This document shows, in pieces, positions 22,134 to 34,130 of a DNA stretch of 64,000 nt. The translations under genes and the position numbers were made by a program. Under the pieces are notes generated by a model. That model was given only the letters and a program-made list of their open reading frames with translations, did not search any database and was not told the origin of the DNA. The number at the start of each line of letters is the position of its first letter. Position 1 is the stretch's first letter. Source of the DNA: Synechococcus sp. BSA11S (GTDB taxonomy: Bacteria; Cyanobacteriota; Cyanobacteriia; PCC-6307; Cyanobiaceae). The stretch is taken from the NCBI RefSeq assembly GCF_014224355.1, contig NZ_VNWP01000008.1:1-64000 (forward strand), read 5' to 3'.

Positions 22134-25863
<3,730 letters not shown>

Positions 25864-25877
<14 letters not shown>

Positions 25878-27639
25878 AGGTCGGCGCCTGCTGGGCCTCG
25901 CTGTCGTGCTGCTGCCGCTGGCGGCAGGGGCGAATGTGCTCCAGGAGGCCGGCCAACGGTTCCAGCCGCTCTGGTCGGCGGGGGGCATGGTGGCCAGTCA
26001 GGAGGCGGAGGCGTCCCGGGTCGGCCGCGATGTGCTGCGGGCGGGGGGCAATGCCGTGGATGCGGCGGTGGCGGCTTCCTTTGCTTTGGCGGTCACCCAC
26101 CCCCAGGCGGGGAACCTCGGCGGCGGTGGGTTCCTGGTGCTCTGGCAGCCGGAGCGGCTCAGCCGCGGGCGGCCGCTGGCGCCCCGGGAGCTGCGGGTGG
26201 GCCAGGGCCGGGCGGTGACGATCAACTTCCGGGAGCGCGCCCCCCTGGCGGCCGGCCCCGATCTGCTGCTCGATGCCAGTGGCAGGGTGGACCGCCGCAA
26301 GGCCACCCGCAGCCTGCTCAGCACCGGGGTGCCCGGCACGGTGGCGGGCCTGCTGCTGGCCCACCGCCACTACGGCCGGCTCCCCCTGGCTCGCCTGATC
26401 GCCCCCTCGATCCGCCTGGCCGATCAGGGCGTGGTGGTGAGCAAGTCCCTGGCGGATTCCCTTAAGGCCGCGGCACCGCGGCTGCGTGCCGATCCCGAAT
26501 CGGCGCGGTTGTTCTTCCGCCCCGGGGGGAAGCCCTACCGACCCGGTGATCGCCTGCGCCAGCCGGAGCTGGCCGGCACCCTGCGCCGCATCGCGGCAGA
26601 GGGGGAGCAGGGGTTCTATGCAGGGCCGGTGGCCCAGCGGCTGGTGGCGTTGATGCGCCGCCGCGGAGGCCTGATCAGCGCCGACGACCTTCGCCTCTAC
26701 CGGGCCCGCCTCCAGGCTCCGCTGCTGGGCGACTGGCGGGGCCATCCCGTGATCGCCATGCCCCCGCCCAGCTCCGGCGGGGTCACCCTGATCCAGCTGC
26801 TCAACATCCTCGAAGGCTTCGACCTGGCGGCCCTGGGGCTGAACAGTGCCGCGACCCTGCATCCGATGGTGGAGGCGATGAACCTGGCCTACCGCGACCG
26901 CAACCGCTGGCTGGGGGATCCACGCTTCGTGGCGATGCCCCTGAAGCGCCTGCTGAGCCAGGGCTATGCCGATCAGCTGCGCCGCACGATCCGACCCGAT
27001 GGCCACCGCCCGGCCGGCGAGCTGGATCCACCCCCCGCTGGCCGCACCGTTGAAAGCACCGACACCACCCACCTCTCGGTGATCGATCGCGACGGCACGA
27101 TGGTGGCCACCACCACCACCTTGAATTTCCCCTACGGCAATGGCGTGAGCGTGCCCGGCGCCGGGTTCCTGCTCAACAACGAGATGGACGATTTCACCGC
27201 CCTGCCGGGGGAGCCCAATGCCTTCGGCCTGGTGCAGGGGAAAGCCAATGCCATCGCACCCGGCAAGCAGCCGCTGAGCTCGATGGCGCCCACCCTGGTG
27301 CTCAGCCCCGAGGGGCTGCCGTTGCTGGCCACCGGCAGCCCTGGTGGCAGCCGCATCATCACCACCGTGCTGCAGGTGCTGCTCAACCGGCTCGAGCATG
27401 GCCTGAACCTGGCTTCCGCCGTGGCGGCCAGCCGGATCCACAGCCAGCACTGGCCCGATCAGCTGGCGGTGGAGGAGGGCCTCAGCCCCGACACCCTCAG
27501 GATCCTGGAGGCGATGGGACACCGCTGGCGGCTGGTGCCTGCCATGGGGGCGGCCCACTCGCTCGAGGCCCTTCCCGGGGGCGGCACCCTGGGGGCGGTC
27601 GATCCCCGGCGAGCCGAAGCGGCCGTCTCGGGTGAGTGA
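25864..27639 (+). CDS. ggt: Gamma-glutamyltransferase (glutathione hydrolase)
   Basis: The 591-residue protein has a putative signal peptide (LLGLAVVLLPLAAGANV), so periplasmic action is likely. The nucleophilic Thr401, where the precursor is self-cleaved, is in ESTDTTHLSVIDRDG. Substrate residues include GGNAVDAAVAASFAL and NLGGGGFLVLW near the N-terminus, NEMDDF, and the SSMAPT and GSPGGSRII segments of the small subunit. It would release glutamate from glutathione or transfer it to amino acids, producing substrates for the overlapping 5-oxoprolinase gene. Confidence 0.93.
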
Positions 27640-28360: not shown

Positions 28361-28858
28361 ATGCTCGAGCTTCTTCCTCCTCTCAACGATCGCAACCTGC
28401 CCTGGATGGACACGATCCATCCGATCGTGGTGCACTTCGTGATCGCGATGGCCCTGATCGCCTTTGTCTTCGATCTGATCGGCCGCCTGGCTGGCAAGCC
28501 GTCGCTCTACGAGGTGAGCTTCTGGAACCTGCTCTTCGCCACCGTCGCGATCTTCATCGCGATCATCTTCGGCCAGGTGGAGGCCGGTCTGGCCAACCCC
28601 TACGGCGCCTCCCGCGAGATCCTCAACCTGCACAGCACCCTGGGCTGGGTGCTGGCCGGGGTGCTCTCGGTGCTCACCGCCTGGCGCTATGTGATCCGCA
28701 GCCGTGATCCCCGGCAGTTGCCGCTGGCCTTCCTCGGGGCGGGCAGCCTGCTCAGTGCGCTGGTGGTGGTGCAGGTCATCCTCGGCAACCAGCTGATCTG
28801 GGTCTACGGCCTGCACACCGTCAAGGTGGTGGAGGCCATGCGCCAGGGGCTGGTCTGA
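28361..28858 (+). CDS. DUF2231-like membrane protein, first of a pair
   Basis: The 165-residue protein has four membrane segments. It begins LPWMDTIHPIVVHFVIAMAL, the 'HP..VHF' signature of DUF2231 proteins, where the two His could bind heme or metal. A second conserved region reads LNLHSTLGWVLAGVLS. The last codon is followed by a start for the next gene in a TGATG arrangement with one shared base. It is the first gene of the alternative-oxidase operon, suggesting a role as an accessory membrane, possibly redox, subunit. Confidence 0.75.
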   Translation: MLELLPPLNDRNLPWMDTIHPIVVHFVIAMALIAFVFDLIGRLAGKPSLYEVSFWNLLFATVAIFIAIIFGQVEAGLANPYGASREILNLHSTLGWVLAGVLSVLTAWRYVIRSRDPRQLPLAFLGAGSLLSALVVVQVILGNQLIWVYGLHTVKVVEAMRQGLV

Positions 28859-29433
28859 TGGAACTCGGAGCCAATGGGCTGCCCTACCGGCTGCCGATTC
28901 ACCCCAACCTGGTGCATCTCACGATCGGCCTGTTCGTGATTGCGATCGCCTTCGACATCGCCGGGGCCCTCTTTCCCTTCGAGAAGCGCCTGTTCCGCTT
29001 CCTGGCCCTGCCCGTCACCCGCGCCGGCCTTCACGATGTGGGTTGGTACAACCTGCTGGCCTGTTGCCTGATCAGTTTCTTCACCGTGGCGGCCGGCTTT
29101 GTGGAGATGCAGCTCGCTGACCCGTTGCCCGGTGTCACCAGCAGCTTCGCCATGGGCAGCACCGCCACCATGCTCTGGCATGGGGCCGTGGGCGTGGCCC
29201 TGCTGTTCGCCATCGTGCTGATGACCCTATGGCGCGGCTTCCAGCGCTTCCGCTGGCGCTGGGAGATGGGCCGCCAGGTGCAGTGGAGCTACCTGCTGGT
29301 GGGCCTGCTGGTGTTCGCTCTGATGGCCTGGCACGGCACCCTCGGCGCCCAGCTGGGGGTGGAGTTCGGGGTGCATGTCACCGCCAGCCAGCTGCTGGCC
29401 GACGGCGCCAGCCTGCGGGAGGCCCTGCCATGA
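28858..29433 (+). CDS. DUF2231-like membrane protein, second of a pair
   Basis: The 191-residue protein has about four to five membrane segments. It repeats the signature of its neighbour: LPIHPNLVHLTIGLFVIAIA near residue 15, then DVGWYNLLACCLISFFTVAAGFVE and a conserved His in LWHGAVGVALLF and MAWHGTLGAQL. The two proteins are probably old duplicates that now form a pair. The stop overlaps the subunit II start by 4 bases (ATGA), which ties it to the oxidase. Confidence 0.75.
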   Translation: MELGANGLPYRLPIHPNLVHLTIGLFVIAIAFDIAGALFPFEKRLFRFLALPVTRAGLHDVGWYNLLACCLISFFTVAAGFVEMQLADPLPGVTSSFAMGSTATMLWHGAVGVALLFAIVLMTLWRGFQRFRWRWEMGRQVQWSYLLVGLLVFALMAWHGTLGAQLGVEFGVHVTASQLLADGASLREALP

Positions 29434-30332
29434 CCAGCACCCCCAGGCGTTTTCCCCTGCCCCGGCTGATCGGCCTGGCCCTCTGGCTGGTGCTCCTGAC
29501 CCTGCTCAGTGTCTGGATGGGGGCTCAGGTGCCCCGCTGGTTGCCGGTGTCGGCTTCCTCGGCGGCCCCACTGGTGGATGGCCTCTTCGGCTTCGAGACC
29601 GCCGTCGCCACCTTCGTGTTCGTGGGTGTGGTCTCGGTGATGGTCTGGGTGGTGCTGTTCAACCGGGCCGAGAAGTACGACATCAGCGATGCGGAGCCGA
29701 TCGAAGGCAACACCACCCTCGAGATCACCTGGACCGTGATTCCCCTGGTGCTGGTGATGGCGATCGCCGCCTACACCATCCAGGTCAACCGCCAGATCGG
29801 TCTGATCGGCCCCATGGACCATGCCCATGGCCCGGCGCTGGGAGGCGGCGAGGTGCAGGTGATCGCCCGCCAGTGGTCGTGGGAGTTCCGCTATCCGGTG
29901 GCGGGGGTGTCCTCCACTGAGCTGCACCTTCCCCTCGACCGGCGCCTCGGCCTGCAGCTGGAGAGCGACGACGTGATCCATGGCTTCTACGTGCCGGCCT
30001 TCCGGCTCAAGCAGCAGGTGATCCCCGGCCGCTCGATCACCCTGTTCATCACCCCCACCCGGGCGGGGCGCTACCGCCTGCGCGACTCCGAGTACAGCGG
30101 CACCTGGTTCGCGGCCAACCAGGCCGATGTGGTGGTGGAGAGCGAAGAGGCCTACCAGAGCTGGCTGAGCCGCGCGGCTCGCCTGCCGCTCCAGCCCGGT
30201 CTGAGCGACGCCGCCCGCGAATTCGCCCAGCAGCGCAGTGGCGAACGCCCCAGCGGCTACGCCACCATCCAGCCGGCCCCACCACCGCTGGTCAATGTGC
30301 CCGGCTCCAACACCCTTCCCCACGACGGCTGA
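29430..30332 (+). CDS. ctaC: Terminal oxidase subunit II lacking the CuA site (ARTO type)
   Basis: The 300-residue protein has two membrane segments (about 12-30 and 49-72) and a cupredoxin domain. The fold is kept (VIARQWSWEFRYP, DVIHGFYVPAFRLKQQVIPGR), including the His of DVIHGF. The CuA loop, normally C-S-E-x-C-G-x-x-H-x-x-M, here reads DSEYSGTWFAAN: Asp219, Ser223, Phe227 and Asn230 replace the two Cys, His and Met. A CuA-less subunit II implies that electrons do not come from cytochrome c; quinol is a reasonable inference, as proposed for the cyanobacterial alternative respiratory terminal oxidase. No N-terminal lipobox Cys is seen. Confidence 0.9.
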   Translation: MTSTPRRFPLPRLIGLALWLVLLTLLSVWMGAQVPRWLPVSASSAAPLVDGLFGFETAVATFVFVGVVSVMVWVVLFNRAEKYDISDAEPIEGNTTLEITWTVIPLVLVMAIAAYTIQVNRQIGLIGPMDHAHGPALGGGEVQVIARQWSWEFRYPVAGVSSTELHLPLDRRLGLQLESDDVIHGFYVPAFRLKQQVIPGRSITLFITPTRAGRYRLRDSEYSGTWFAANQADVVVESEEAYQSWLSRAARLPLQPGLSDAAREFAQQRSGERPSGYATIQPAPPPLVNVPGSNTLPHDG

Positions 30333-30336
30333 TCCC

Positions 30337-32028
30337 ATGACCTCCTCCGCCGGCGTTGATGCGCGCATCCTCAGGGCCCCCCATCCGGTGCCCGGTGCTC
30401 CGGACAACTGGAAGCGCTTCTTCACCTTCAACACCGATGCCAAGGTGATCGGCATCCAGTACATCGCCACCGCTCTCTTCTTTCTGCTGGTGGGCGGCCT
30501 GCTGGCCATGATCATGCGCGGAGAGCTGATCACACCGGCGGCGGATCTGGTTGATCGCACCGTGTACAACGGCCTCTACACGATGCACGGGACGATCATG
30601 TTGTTCCTGTTCATCTTTCCGGTGCTCAACGGGCTCAACAACCTGCTGATCCCCTGCATGATCGGCGCCCCCGACATGGCTTTCCCCAAGCTCAATGCCG
30701 CCGCCTTCTGGCTGGTGCCGGTGTTCGGGGTGATTCTGATGGCCAGCTTTCTGGTGCCTGGAGGGCCGGCCTCCTCCGGCTGGTGGTCGTACCCGCCGGT
30801 GAGCCTGCAGAACCCCCTCGGCCATCTGATCAACGGCGAAGCTCTCTGGATCCTGGCGGTGGCCCTCTCCGGCATCTCCTCGATCATGGGGGCCGTCAAC
30901 TTCGTGACCACAATTCTGCGCATGCGGGCCCCGGGCATGACCCTCAGCCGGATGCCGATCTTCTGCTGGACGGCCTTCTCGGCCCAGACGATCCAATTGA
31001 TCGGCCTGCCGGCGCTCACGGGTGGGGCGGTGATGCTGCTGTTCGATCTGGTGGTGGGCACCTCCTTCTACCGGCCGGAAGGGGGCGGTGATCCGGTGCT
31101 CTATCAGCACTTCTTCTGGTTCTATTCCCACCCGGCCGTGTATGTGATCATCCTGCCGGTGTTCGGGGTGTTCTCCGAGCTGTTTCCGGTCTATGCCCGC
31201 AAGCCCCTGTTCGGCTATCCCTTCGTGGCCGGGGCCTCCCTGGTGATCGTGGGGCTCAGCCTGATCGTCTGGGTGCACCACATGTTCCCGAGCGGCGTGC
31301 CCCAGTGGATGCGCGATGCCTTCATGGTCACCACCATGCTGATCGCGGTGCCCACCGGCATCAAGGTGTTCGCCTGGCTGGCCACCCTCTGGGGCGGCAA
31401 GTTGCGGTTGAACACGGCGATGCTGTTCGCCCTCGGAGGGCTGTTCAACTTCGTGTTCGCCGGGGTGACCGGCATCATGCTGGCCACCGTACCGGTGGAC
31501 ATTCACGTCAACAACACCTATTTCGTGGTGGGTCATTTCCATTATGTGATCTATGGCGCCGCCACCATGGGCGTCTATGCGGCGATCTACCACTGGTTTC
31601 CGAAGTTCACCGGCCACATGTATTACGAGGGCCTGGGCAAGCTCCACTTCCTGCTCACCTTCATCGGTACCAACCTCAACTTCTTCCCGATGCATCCGCT
31701 CGGCCTGATGGGCATGCCGCGCCGCGTTTCCTCCTACGACCCCGAATTCGCCTTCTGGAACGTGATCGCCAGCCTCGGTGCCTTCCTGCTCGGGGTGTCA
31801 ATCATTCCCTTCCTGCTCAACCTGGTGAGCTCCTGGGTGCGGGGCGCCAAGGCGCCGGCCAACCCCTGGAATGCCATCGGTCTGGAGTGGCTGCTGCCCT
31901 CACCGCCGCCGGCGGAGAACTTCGAGGAGCATGTGCCCACCGTGATCAGCGGCCCCTACGGCTACGGCACCGGCCGGCCGCTGGTGGAGCACCAGGCCGA
32001 GATCGAACGTGCCCTCCAGCAGGCCTGA
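30337..32028 (+). CDS. ctaD: Heme-copper oxidase subunit I, A2 type
   Basis: The 563-residue protein has 12 or more membrane segments and reduces O2 at a heme-CuB centre. Heme and copper ligands are visible: TMHGTIMLFLFIFP (low-spin heme His), FYSHPAVYVIILP (CuB His265 with the cross-linked Tyr), VHHMFPSG (two CuB His) and VGHFHYVIYGA (high-spin and low-spin heme His). Helix VI reads Y263-S-H-P-A267 rather than G-H-P-E, so the D-channel Glu is replaced and the enzyme belongs to the A2 subgroup with a Tyr-Ser pair. It starts 4 bases after subunit II. Confidence 0.93.
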   Translation: MTSSAGVDARILRAPHPVPGAPDNWKRFFTFNTDAKVIGIQYIATALFFLLVGGLLAMIMRGELITPAADLVDRTVYNGLYTMHGTIMLFLFIFPVLNGLNNLLIPCMIGAPDMAFPKLNAAAFWLVPVFGVILMASFLVPGGPASSGWWSYPPVSLQNPLGHLINGEALWILAVALSGISSIMGAVNFVTTILRMRAPGMTLSRMPIFCWTAFSAQTIQLIGLPALTGGAVMLLFDLVVGTSFYRPEGGGDPVLYQHFFWFYSHPAVYVIILPVFGVFSELFPVYARKPLFGYPFVAGASLVIVGLSLIVWVHHMFPSGVPQWMRDAFMVTTMLIAVPTGIKVFAWLATLWGGKLRLNTAMLFALGGLFNFVFAGVTGIMLATVPVDIHVNNTYFVVGHFHYVIYGAATMGVYAAIYHWFPKFTGHMYYEGLGKLHFLLTFIGTNLNFFPMHPLGLMGMPRRVSSYDPEFAFWNVIASLGAFLLGVSIIPFLLNLVSSWVRGAKAPANPWNAIGLEWLLPSPPPAENFEEHVPTVISGPYGYGTGRPLVEHQAEIERALQQA

Positions 32029-32031
32029 GCG

Positions 32032-32631
32032 ATGACCATCAGCACCTCTCACGATGCCGCCGCCGCCCCCCAGGGGCATGGGGCGGCCCATGCCAACCAC
32101 AGCCTCACCGGCTTCATCATCTTTCTCTGCTCCGAGAGCGTCATCTTCCTGGCCTTCTTCAGTGGCTATGCCGTGCTGAAGCTCTCGGCCCTGCAGTGGC
32201 TGCCGCCGGGAGTGGAGGGGTTGGAGTGGCGCACGCCCCTGCTCTACACGGTGGTGCTGGTCTCCAGCAGCGGCACCGTGGCTCTGGCGGAGCGCTGCCT
32301 CTCCAGGGGCAAGCTCTGGGGATTCCGCGCCTTCTGGCTGCTGAGCATGGCGATGGGGGCGGTGTTCCTCTACGGCCAGGCGATCGAGTGGCGCTCGCTG
32401 GGCTTCGGCATCACCAGCGGCAGTTTCGGTGGTTGCTTCTACCTGCTCACCGGCTTCCACGGCCTGCATGTGCTCAGCGGGATCCTGCTGATGGCCCTGA
32501 TGCTCCAGCGCTCCTTCCGCCCCGCCAACTACGCCGCCGGTGAGCAGGGGGTGATCGCCACCTCCCTGTTCTGGCATTTCGTGGATGTGATCTGGGTGCT
32601 GCTCTTTCTTCTGCTCTACGCCTGGTCATGA
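32032..32631 (+). CDS. ctaE: Heme-copper oxidase subunit III
   Basis: The 199-residue protein has five membrane segments, fitting the shorter five-helix subunit III type. Family features are the SVIFLAFFSGYAVL segment, the conserved Glu in LCSESVIFL, TSGSFGGCFYLLTGFHGLHV and the final FWHFVDVIWVLLFLLLYAWS. It starts 3 bases after the subunit I stop and its own stop overlaps the GMC oxidoreductase start (ATGA), so all three subunits and the flavoprotein are coupled. Confidence 0.92.
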   Translation: MTISTSHDAAAAPQGHGAAHANHSLTGFIIFLCSESVIFLAFFSGYAVLKLSALQWLPPGVEGLEWRTPLLYTVVLVSSSGTVALAERCLSRGKLWGFRAFWLLSMAMGAVFLYGQAIEWRSLGFGITSGSFGGCFYLLTGFHGLHVLSGILLMALMLQRSFRPANYAAGEQGVIATSLFWHFVDVIWVLLFLLLYAWS

Positions 32632-34130
32632 TCGTCGACGACCGGCACCACGATGTGATCGTGATCGGCTCAGGCGCCGCCGGTGGCACCCTGGCCGGGG
32701 CCCTCGCGGCCAGGGGCCGCTCGGTGCTGCTGCTGGAGCGCGGCGGGGCGATGGATCTGGCCGATCAGAACGTGGCCAGCGTGGATCTGTTCCGCAAGGA
32801 CCGCTATCACCCCAGTGAGGCCTGGTTCGGCCCCGACGGCGATCCCTTTGCTCCCCAGACCATCTATGCCCTGGGCGGCAACACCAAGATCTGGGGCGGG
32901 GTGCTGGAGCGCATGTGGCCCCGGGAGTTCGAGGGTCTGCCGCTGCAGGAGGGGGTGGCTCCCGCCTGGCCCCTCAGCTACGACGAGCTCGCCCCCTGGT
33001 ACGAGCGGGCCGAAGGGCTCTACCGGGTCCATGGCCGTGCCGGCCTCGACCCCCAGGAGCCCCCCCGCAGCGGCGCCTATCCCCATGCCCCCCTGCCGCT
33101 CGATCCGCTCTTCGAGCCCCTGCGCCAGGGGCTGCTGCGCCAGGGCTGCCACCCCTACGACCTGCCCCTGAGCTGGTCCGAGGCCCCAGAGGATCCCAGC
33201 GGCGACGCCGAGCTGTTCGGGGTGCAGCCGGCCCTGACCCACTCCGGAACCCGGCTGATCGGCAATGCCCGGGTCACCCAGCTGCACGTCGATCCCAGCG
33301 GCCGCGAGGTCAAGGGGGTGGAAGCCGAGATCGACGGCCAGTGCTGGATGTTCCACGGCGATCAGGTGGTGCTGGCCGCCGGAGCGGTGAACACTCCGGC
33401 GCTGCTGCTGCGTTCCCGCAGCGCGCTCCATCCCGATGGCCTGGCCAACGGTTCAGATCAGGTGGGCCGCCACCTGATGAAGCCCCAGCTCACGGCGATC
33501 CTGCAGCTGGCCCGCGAGCCCCACAGCGGCCGCTTCCCCCGCAGCCTCGGCGTCAACGACTACGCCTGGGGGGATCAGAACGTCAGCTTTCCCCTCGGCC
33601 ACATCGAAACCGGTGGCGGGGTGCTGCAGGACGCCCAGTTCGCCGAGTCGCCGCCCGTGCTGTCGCTGGTCACCCGGCTGCTGCCCAACGCGGCCCTGGA
33701 GCAGCTGGCGGTGCGCTCGATCTGCTGGTGGGCGATGAGCCCGGTGCTGCCCGATCCCGAGAACCGCATCGAGCTTCGTGGGCAGAGGCTGAGCATCCAG
33801 TACCTGGCCAACAACCTCGAGGCCCACGACCGGCTCGTGTACCGCTGGCTCTCCATGCTCAGGGTGGTGGATGCCGATCCGCTCACCCCCCAGGTGCGCC
33901 CGGCCCCCTTCTATCCCCGCGGCGAGGCTCCCCTGGCCGTGATCGGCCACGCCTGCGGCACCTGCCGCATGGGCGACGATCCGGCCACCTCGGTGGTCGA
34001 CCGTGACGGCCGCGTCCACGGCCTGGCCAACCTGACCATCGCCGATGCCAGCGTCTTCCCCAGCTGCCCGATGGTGTCGCCCGGTCTCACCGTGATCGCC
34101 AACGCCCTGCGGGTGGCGGAGCGGCTCTAG
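32628..34130 (+). CDS. GMC-family FAD oxidoreductase linked to the ARTO operon
   Basis: The 500-residue flavoprotein has an N-terminal FAD site (DVIVIGSGAAGGTLAGALAA near residue 9) and LLLERGG. A C-terminal active-site His lies in IGHACGTCRMGDDP and the FAD-binding end is NLTIADASVFPSCPMVSPGL. It has no membrane helix or signal peptide. GMC enzymes oxidise sugars, alcohols or choline; the substrate here is unknown. Translational coupling to subunit III suggests that it feeds electrons into the same quinone/oxidase chain, which is inference only. Confidence 0.87.
   Translation: MIVDDRHHDVIVIGSGAAGGTLAGALAARGRSVLLLERGGAMDLADQNVASVDLFRKDRYHPSEAWFGPDGDPFAPQTIYALGGNTKIWGGVLERMWPREFEGLPLQEGVAPAWPLSYDELAPWYERAEGLYRVHGRAGLDPQEPPRSGAYPHAPLPLDPLFEPLRQGLLRQGCHPYDLPLSWSEAPEDPSGDAELFGVQPALTHSGTRLIGNARVTQLHVDPSGREVKGVEAEIDGQCWMFHGDQVVLAAGAVNTPALLLRSRSALHPDGLANGSDQVGRHLMKPQLTAILQLAREPHSGRFPRSLGVNDYAWGDQNVSFPLGHIETGGGVLQDAQFAESPPVLSLVTRLLPNAALEQLAVRSICWWAMSPVLPDPENRIELRGQRLSIQYLANNLEAHDRLVYRWLSMLRVVDADPLTPQVRPAPFYPRGEAPLAVIGHACGTCRMGDDPATSVVDRDGRVHGLANLTIADASVFPSCPMVSPGLTVIANALRVAERL

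Follow-up and report, generated by a model that had tools for sequence, protein, structure and literature searches.

A conserved DUF2231, oxidase and flavoprotein module at the alternative respiratory terminal oxidase locus of Synechococcus sp. BSA11S

How does a terminal oxidase whose subunit II lacks the CuA ligands receive its electrons? The question is raised by a six-gene operon of the cyanobacterium Synechococcus sp. BSA11S, which lies on the + strand at positions 28361-34130 of the window, the whole 64,000-nucleotide stretch of contig NZ_VNWP01000008.1 analysed here. The open reading frame (ORF) list together with Pfam gives its genes in order as DUF2231, DUF2231, ctaC, ctaD, ctaE and a GMC flavoprotein, and we conclude that the locus is a cyanobacterial alternative respiratory terminal oxidase (ARTO) of the Synechococcus/Cyanobium type in a six-gene form. 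The oxidase itself has been described before, as has an Anabaena operon in which two additional genes precede coxBAC3 (PMC6616624). A conserved module of DUF2231 proteins, oxidase and flavoprotein is well supported by the comparisons below, and the route that electrons would take through it is our proposal: we give about even odds to a respiratory module fed by a flavoprotein, with the DUF2231 pair as the possible source of the electron-entry site.

The features of the class are found in the window, namely a CuA-free subunit II homologue, a full heme-copper subunit I and a DUF2231 pair 5′ of ctaC. The ctaC gene (29430-30332, 300 residues, COX2_TM and COX2) carries D/S/F/N at residues 219, 223, 227 and 230, which span the former CuA loop (D...S...F..N, 30084-30119), at the positions where six aligned CuA-type subunits have C/C/H/M. 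Across 56 aligned ARTO ctaC sequences D219, S223 and His184 of the DVIH motif (29979-29981), the single CuA ligand retained, are each present in 56/56 and F227 in 55/56; Asn230 is a local trait, Met being kept there in many other ARTOs. Because the replacement residues are themselves fixed, the former CuA site is best described from the alignment as a conserved, remodelled site and not as one in decay. An alignment artefact was considered as the source of the missing ligands and rejected on the fixation of D219 and S223. A preliminary description of this DNA, made from the letters alone, had named the oxidase an ARTO and its subunit II CuA-free with the DVIHGF His kept, and both statements are borne out by alignment with ARTO and CuA-type subunits. 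The absence of CuA from ARTO subunit II has itself been published (PMC6616624, citing Howitt and Vermaas 1998).

The window oxidase is separate from the aa3 operon of its host and falls in a clade of CuA-free oxidases on the subunit I tree. The 2.88 Mb host genome holds one further COX1 besides that of the operon, and its other oxidase set is an ordinary ctaC-ctaD-ctaE with the CuA motif (locus L033) and without DUF2231; searches of the genome returned no cydA match and no DUF2231 outside the ARTO operon. Within the operon the junctions are, in gene order, a 1-base overlap, a 4-base overlap, a 4-base gap, a 3-base gap and a 4-base overlap, in agreement with the tight coupling by 1-4-base overlaps or gaps described earlier. 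All six products match Pfam models over the cut-off (DUF2231 twice, COX2_TM + COX2, COX1, COX3, GMC_oxred_C + GMC_oxred_N). The NCBIfam cut-off was reached by no model for any of the six, the closest models below it being CtaD_CoxA (663.3 of 670.75 bits) and CoxB (128.8 of 147.7 bits). The ARTOs of Synechocystis PCC 6803 (ctaCII, sll0813; PMC7796093) and Anabaena PCC 7120 (coxBAC3) share with the window the three-subunit core and the CuA-free subunit II. The published Anabaena order alr2729-alr2730-coxB3-coxA3-coxC3 (PMC6616624) matches, as a gene order, DUF2231-DUF2231-ctaC-ctaD-ctaE; alr2729 and alr2730, both labelled 'hypothetical protein' (PMC4390870), would by their place in that order be DUF2231 proteins. 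The window operon ends in a GMC gene, whereas the Anabaena operon as printed does not.

Subunit I narrows the question. The ctaD gene encodes 563 residues (30337-32028, COX1 E value 3.4e-154) if started at the in-frame ATG at 30337, the mechanical ORF beginning earlier at a GTG at 30238. In E. coli bo3 numbering, the heme and CuB His, helix VI Tyr288, D135, N124, N142 and K362 are conserved in 120/120 ARTO subunit I sequences, a set that holds many close relatives (diverse subset n=51), and the reduction of O2 therefore appears to be under selection. In an A2-type heme-copper oxidase the helix VI Glu is replaced by Tyr-Ser, and the D- and K-channel residues are kept. Helix VI of the window subunit reads YSHPA (residues 263-267, 31123-31137, with His265 and Ala267), and the A2 pattern is complete in that the channel residues are kept and the helix VI Glu is gone, Tyr-Ser having been read in the window and in the displayed rows. 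The bo3 residue E286 is Ala in 120/120 ARTO subunit I sequences and likewise in the 6/6 CuA-type sequences examined, so the A2 signature cannot separate ARTO from its CuA relatives. The motif noted in the preliminary description is thus present and yet not specific to ARTO, and the proposal that a helix VI Ala marks ARTO was rejected.

The same description had called the oxidase quinol-type on the missing CuA ligands and the helix VI motif together. E. coli bo3 and the aa3-600 quinol oxidase have no CuA. They belong to the same superfamily as the window ARTO, whose subunit II matches that of aa3-600 at an E value of 1.2e-18 and whose former CuA loop resembles the aa3-600 loop in the alignment. 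Unlike in bo3, the quinol cluster Arg71-Asp75-His98-Gln101 is absent, in 120/120 aligned ARTO subunit I sequences, where R71 is V/I/F, D75 is L/F/M, H98 is V/F/L/I and Q101 is G/S/A (cluster taken from PMC10256718, where residue 101 is printed as Glu although the E. coli gene has Gln). With the bo3 cluster and CuA both absent, ARTO is without either textbook electron-entry point, and 'quinol-type' is for ARTO a hypothesis that, as far as these alignments go, cannot be deduced from the missing CuA. Subunit I is by sequence nearer to an actinobacterial aa3 oxidase than to bo3, the window protein matching the 6adq subunit of the Mycobacterium smegmatis complex (E value 9.2e-144) more closely than bo3 (1fft, 4.9e-104). 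A conventional quinol oxidase would fit the likeness of the former CuA loop to aa3-600; in it plastoquinol would be oxidised by subunits I and II without help, at a site not yet recognised, the DUF2231 proteins would have an accessory or structural part, and the GMC protein would be a metabolic enzyme that merely shares regulation. Given the absence of the bo3 cluster in 120/120, and given the genes that accompany the oxidase, we regard it as rather unlikely.

Those accompanying genes are conserved partners of ARTO. By a subunit II search, 97/386 cyanobacterial genomes were counted as ARTO-positive; the count rests on E values, the CuA motif having been read only in fetched loci, and the set was chosen by hand as E <= 1e-44 plus G076, G080 and G093, of which only G076 was read. 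G209, G249, G316 and G348 were excluded despite overlapping E values (1e-40 to 1e-43), three being read as CuA type and G316 left unread. Orthologues of the GMC gene, defined as full-length matches of at least 46% identity, occur in 48/386 genomes, made up of 48/97 ARTO-positive and 0/289 ARTO-negative genomes. In 47 of the 48 the gene follows ctaC on the same strand at a distance of 2.3-5.2 kb, and in the 48th it is on another contig and ARTO is close to a contig end. Any match at E <= 1e-20 is found in 73/386 genomes; excluded as orthologues were one full-length match of 41% identity and five of 42-43%, three of which (G203, G336, G060) are found some 3.6 to 9 kb away from a ctaC of the second ARTO lineage described below, two on the opposite strand. 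In the window's own family, 25/25 ARTO genomes have the GMC gene. A scan of named genomes, covering 80 loci as the best 80 of at least 563 relatives and including Synechococcus sp. RCC307 and SynAce01, found it in 67/67 loci with ctaE and at least 1.6 kb of room, and ctaE and GMC were on the same strand and -4 to 125 bases apart in the 69/69 loci where both were found. In 35 further loci, mostly more distant, ctaE and GMC are separated by 3 to 2723 bases (median 43). A chance neighbour was rejected as an explanation, since 48/48 genomes with the GMC gene are ARTO-positive and 67/67 of the best-matching loci with room carry it.

The DUF2231 pair is tied to the oxidase still more widely. It stands at the locus of 54/56 ARTO ctaC genes (the window and 55 fetched loci; exceptions L074 and L086), which argues against its being incidental to a conventional quinol oxidase. 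At least two DUF2231 matches were counted by hand in 26/26 ARTO-positive and 2/72 ARTO-negative genomes among 98 searched, and one of the latter two (G062) has a tandem of another DUF2231 kind. Plasmid A of Trichormus variabilis ATCC 29413 has DUF2231-DUF2231-ctaC-ctaD-ctaE-GMC followed by cydAB, so a Nostocaceae ARTO can carry the GMC gene too.

Several observations on individual operons stand beside these counts. ARTO operons occur on two plasmids typed as conjugative, that of T. variabilis (L194) and one of Nostoc sp. C057 (L199), the latter operon lying about 5-9 kb from nifV and nifH. At L152 (9001-11742) DUF2231b begins about 1.7 kb after DUF2231a, with no overlap. At L128 (6841-7769), from a metagenome-assembled genome (MAG), DUF2231a and a short DUF2231b are found with no ctaC in the remaining 8.5 kb and an NDH-2-like match nearby. 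Two MAG loci titled Bifidobacterium breve (L150) and Prochlorococcus marinus MIT 9215 (L153) hold the picocyanobacterial ARTO operon and are probably wrongly labelled or from mixed bins. A second DUF2231 kind, with a GHPxHP start, occurs at separate loci (L177-L182, L190), where the other operon genes are unmatched except for a partial GMC match in L180.

The flavoprotein partner changes with oxidase lineage. On a subunit I tree made by a quick method ARTO splits into two lineages, here named A and B, the names being our own and distinct from the type-1/type-2 ARTO of the literature; L064, L069, L079, L082 and L086 have no ctaD over 530 residues and were left out, and one lineage B locus appears twice (L074 = L191). 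In lineage A, 41/51 rows have GMC at the locus, and those that do not are one nine-row branch of family f7 (our working label 'Nostoc-type') together with L062; two other f7 loci (L056, L060) carry GMC. In lineage B (8 rows, 7 loci) the nearby flavoprotein is NDH-2-like at 4 loci and at 3 (L191-L193) a GMC paralogue with the canonical catalytic residues and Cys loop, on the opposite strand in L192 and L193. The state of the flavoprotein requires a minimum of five changes on this tree. The expected order of DUF2231, ctaCDE and GMC is accordingly borne out in part: the DUF2231 pair is nearly constant and the GMC gene tracks ARTO-positive genomes, and GMC is not universal to ARTO. With both kinds of gene conserved beside ARTO, the earlier word 'module' is a fair one. 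Near the lineage B ARTOs L191-L193, though not all at each, are also a glucose-1-dehydrogenase-like SDR, a GH63-like hydrolase, an SMP-30/gluconolactonase-like protein and the canonical GMC, an arrangement in which sugar oxidation would seem to be grouped with the oxidase.

The NDH-2 that takes the flavoprotein position elsewhere is a Pyr_redox_2 protein, 47-62% identical to the copy at L187, present at nine of the fetched loci, of which L079 and L187 are one place. On the same strand, it precedes the DUF2231 pair at L187 (by 3 bases), L188 (by about 0.1 kb) and L189 (by about 0.2 kb) and follows ctaE by 0.35-0.7 kb at L077, L078 and L081; at L083 it is divergent. In Fischerella sp. NIES-4106 a gene annotated ndbC, whose product is 62% identical to the L187 protein, is directly upstream of DUF2231-DUF2231-ctaC-ctaDII-ctaEII, both DUF2231 proteins being labelled hypothetical in that record. 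In Gloeothece PCC 7822 an NDH-2 relative (49-50%) starts 9 bases after ctaE, and the DUF2231 pair is elsewhere on the plasmid. These loci resemble the window in placing a flavoprotein beside the DUF2231 pair or 3′ of ctaE and differ in its family, Pyr_redox_2 as against GMC. At L176, in genome G036, the order is DUF2231a-DUF2231b-NDH-2 with NDH-2 3 bases 3′ of DUF2231b, and the best subunit II match of that genome is only 5.6e-24, which is not of ARTO strength and was taken as CuA type, unread. This set without an ARTO-strength oxidase is a second point against reading the pair as mere accessory to a quinol oxidase. A distant NDH-2-like match (28-30%) occurs at 24/158 loci searched, in the mapped ones mostly divergent from DUF2231a, and was not found in the window. 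Published work on Synechocystis places NdbC as well as the ARTO subunits in the plasma membrane (PMC6878006) and finds lower amounts of NdbC and ARTO in cells grown on glucose (PMC9175036). Among open-licence PMC papers, three were found to mention NdbC and ARTO along with the plasma membrane and Synechocystis. At L189 (7666-9364, genome G060) NDH-2, DUF2231a and DUF2231b look intact, the ctaC (105 residues) and ctaD (452 residues) ORFs are short, and a full ctaC-ctaD-ctaE is found elsewhere in the genome with no DUF2231 beside it.

What the GMC protein of the window does is a separate matter from its placement. The gene (32628-34130, 500 residues; GMC_oxred_C E value 3.4e-21, GMC_oxred_N 1.4e-6) follows ctaE (subunit III, 32032-32631, 199 residues, COX3 E value 4.1e-31); its product has a flavin adenine dinucleotide (FAD) motif near the first residues and, on reading, no obvious signal peptide. 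Its closest solved relatives, aligned over the full length, are the glucose dehydrogenase 8hdd (E value 4e-31), of Burkholderia cepacia type, and a fructose dehydrogenase, with whose large subunit the linked proteins share the GMC fold and the FAD motif. Among 103 ARTO-linked GMC proteins, a set with many close relatives (diverse subset n=36), the FAD-site residues Gly14, Gly16, Gly19 and Glu37 (GxGxxG) are invariant. The B. cepacia enzyme has a catalytic pair His476/Asn519 and a 3Fe-4S Cys loop (PMC6719666). Unlike that type, the linked clade has the Cys loop in 0/103, His at the catalytic position in 14/103, and G/S/P/T in 103/103 at the partner position, never Asn or His. His400 is invariant in 103/103, a position at which three canonical paralogues carry Gly. 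An intermediate case is the T. variabilis protein, with the Cys loop present and Asn and Ser at the pair positions. The window protein keeps His441 (33948-33950) with Ser484 (34077-34079), and because a His-Ser pair is known from CtFDO (PMC8171062) it may retain some chemistry. As judged from these residues, the linked GMC protein has probably given up canonical alcohol chemistry; the oxidation of sugars or alcohols cannot be read from a GMC gene downstream, since the His/Asn pair is not conserved in the clade, and the same loss weakens the reading of the protein as an ordinary glucose or alcohol dehydrogenase. The GMC tree is unrooted and by itself gives no direction for the change of the catalytic pair, and the ctaD-GMC distance correlation of 0.85 is what shared ancestry alone would give and carries no weight here. 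At many picocyanobacterial loci and at L103 (13330-18493) a GH63/MGH1-like glycoside hydrolase of about 880-900 residues lies 3′ of the ARTO-linked GMC gene, and 3′ of it, where the stretch is long enough, a second GMC, with a Cys-rich loop in the L103 and L137 copies. A search of open-licence papers in PubMed Central (PMC) found no publication joining GMC oxidoreductase, cyanobacteria and terminal oxidase.

The DUF2231 proteins are the remaining candidates for the point of electron entry. DUF2231a (28361-28858, 165 residues, a four-helix membrane protein) and DUF2231b (28858-29433, 191 residues) match PF09990 at E values of 6.3e-36 and 8.2e-36, scoring 123.9 and 123.6 bits against a cut-off of 26.4. 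Four His are invariant in each family (54/54), namely His20, His25, His91 and His152 of DUF2231a and His15, His20, His108 and His173 of DUF2231b. AlphaFold2 models both as four-helix bundles, with mean predicted local distance difference test (pLDDT) scores of 82.3 and 75.6, respectively. The DUF2231a His lie in the model at the start of helix 1, the start of helix 3 and just after helix 4, and by the helix limits of the models all four His of each protein would be at the same membrane face. The face opposite the His is richer in Lys/Arg in 54/54 rows of both families. By the positive-inside rule the more basic face of a membrane protein is the cytosolic one, so the His face is predicted to be periplasmic. 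Other DUF2231 proteins share the His of the HP motif and the helix 3 His of DUF2231a and have a C-terminal His that is near but shifted; His25 is particular to the ARTO-type pair. Non-significant Foldseek and VIA matches include oxidase subunit III, bd oxidase, CcmC/CcmF, designed porphyrin or diheme binders and many generic bundles, with STEAP1 among them in Foldseek only. From the His pattern a heme, a metal or a quinol would each be a possible ligand. A search of open-licence PMC papers found a single one that names DUF2231.

A His-rich site predicted on the periplasmic side could also belong to a factor that assembles the oxidase by delivering CuB or heme to subunit I. The tight linkage of the pair 5′ of ctaC and the heme O synthase-type gene (protoheme IX farnesyltransferase) upstream at the Fischerella locus are consistent with such a role, whereas the host's CuA-type oxidase operon does without DUF2231 and a DUF2231-DUF2231-NDH-2 set is found in a genome with no ARTO-strength match. 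We consider assembly distinctly improbable and favour a role in electron transfer, because of the linkage to NDH-2, that genome included. The same predicted face would also suit a module that is chiefly a plasma-membrane ferric reductase, the flavoprotein and DUF2231 passing electrons to periplasmic Fe(III), with O2 as an alternative acceptor via ARTO. A review reports that a Synechocystis ARTO mutant has lowered ferric reductase activity and iron uptake (PMC7676907). The heme, CuB and proton-channel residues of subunit I are nonetheless kept throughout the 120 sequences, and we hold ferric reduction as the chief function to be very improbable.

The reading we prefer is the flavoprotein-fed respiratory module. 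A cytosolic flavoprotein (GMC here, NDH-2/NdbC elsewhere) would feed electrons into the membrane, most likely into quinone, or into the DUF2231 proteins. The DUF2231 pair together with subunits I and II would form the periplasmic-side electron-entry site that is missing from the core, either as a His/acid quinol site or with DUF2231 holding a b-type heme. Electrons would then pass to the low-spin heme and on to the heme-CuB centre, where O2 would be reduced, and ferric reduction could be a side output of the same DUF2231 entry site. A stronger form of this proposal, which we think unlikely as a whole, would make ARTO no stand-alone quinol oxidase but the O2-reducing end of a dedicated flavoprotein:DUF2231:heme-copper complex, with DUF2231 as a new membrane redox module for heme or quinone, its four-His periplasmic site standing in for CuA as well as for the bo3 quinol site, and with an input flavoprotein swapped in evolution between NDH-2 and a GMC protein that lost alcohol chemistry.

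Several points weigh against a flavoprotein-fed module. The ten lineage A ARTOs of 51 that have no GMC at the locus indicate that a linked flavoprotein is not essential and suit a conventional quinol oxidase, as does a review that treats ARTO as a bo3-type, plastoquinol-fed oxidase, the donor being given by likeness to bo3 (PMC6616624); no direct test of plastoquinol as the donor was found in the extracts of that review. Even without the bo3 cluster, subunits I and II could hold a quinol site of another kind. The Anabaena ARTO is placed in heterocyst honeycomb membranes, not in the plasma membrane (PMC6616624). Confidence in the DUF2231 models is lower (block means 56-65) around His20 and His152 of DUF2231a and His15 and His20 of DUF2231b; their best Foldseek E values are 0.11 and 0.41, to a generic four-helix bundle only, and their best VIA Z scores of 14.8 and 13.2 are usual for helical bundles. 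Some of the His are common to other DUF2231 proteins, so the site may serve a general and not an ARTO-specific role, and a search of open-licence PMC papers found no biochemistry for DUF2231.

The surroundings of the operon are of a different kind. Upstream, the opposite strand encodes a DUF308 protein, and there is also a gamma-glutamyltransferase-like ORF. The latter is overlapped by a 1247-residue fused 5-oxoprolinase/hydantoinase-like ORF, the two occupying 22134-27639 just 5′ of the operon. Downstream are an ssl2009-like ORF and ilvD. The gamma-glutamyltransferase, 5-oxoprolinase/hydantoinase and ilvD names are by reading only.

The locus thus offers a testable idea of how ARTO receives electrons, and it names three candidate partners of the oxidase, a flavoprotein and the DUF2231 pair, in which exact residues for mutation can be given. 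If the flavoprotein-fed module is correct, it would connect NdbC-type NDH-2 with ARTO at the molecular level, and perhaps also with the role in iron reduction that has been proposed for ARTO.

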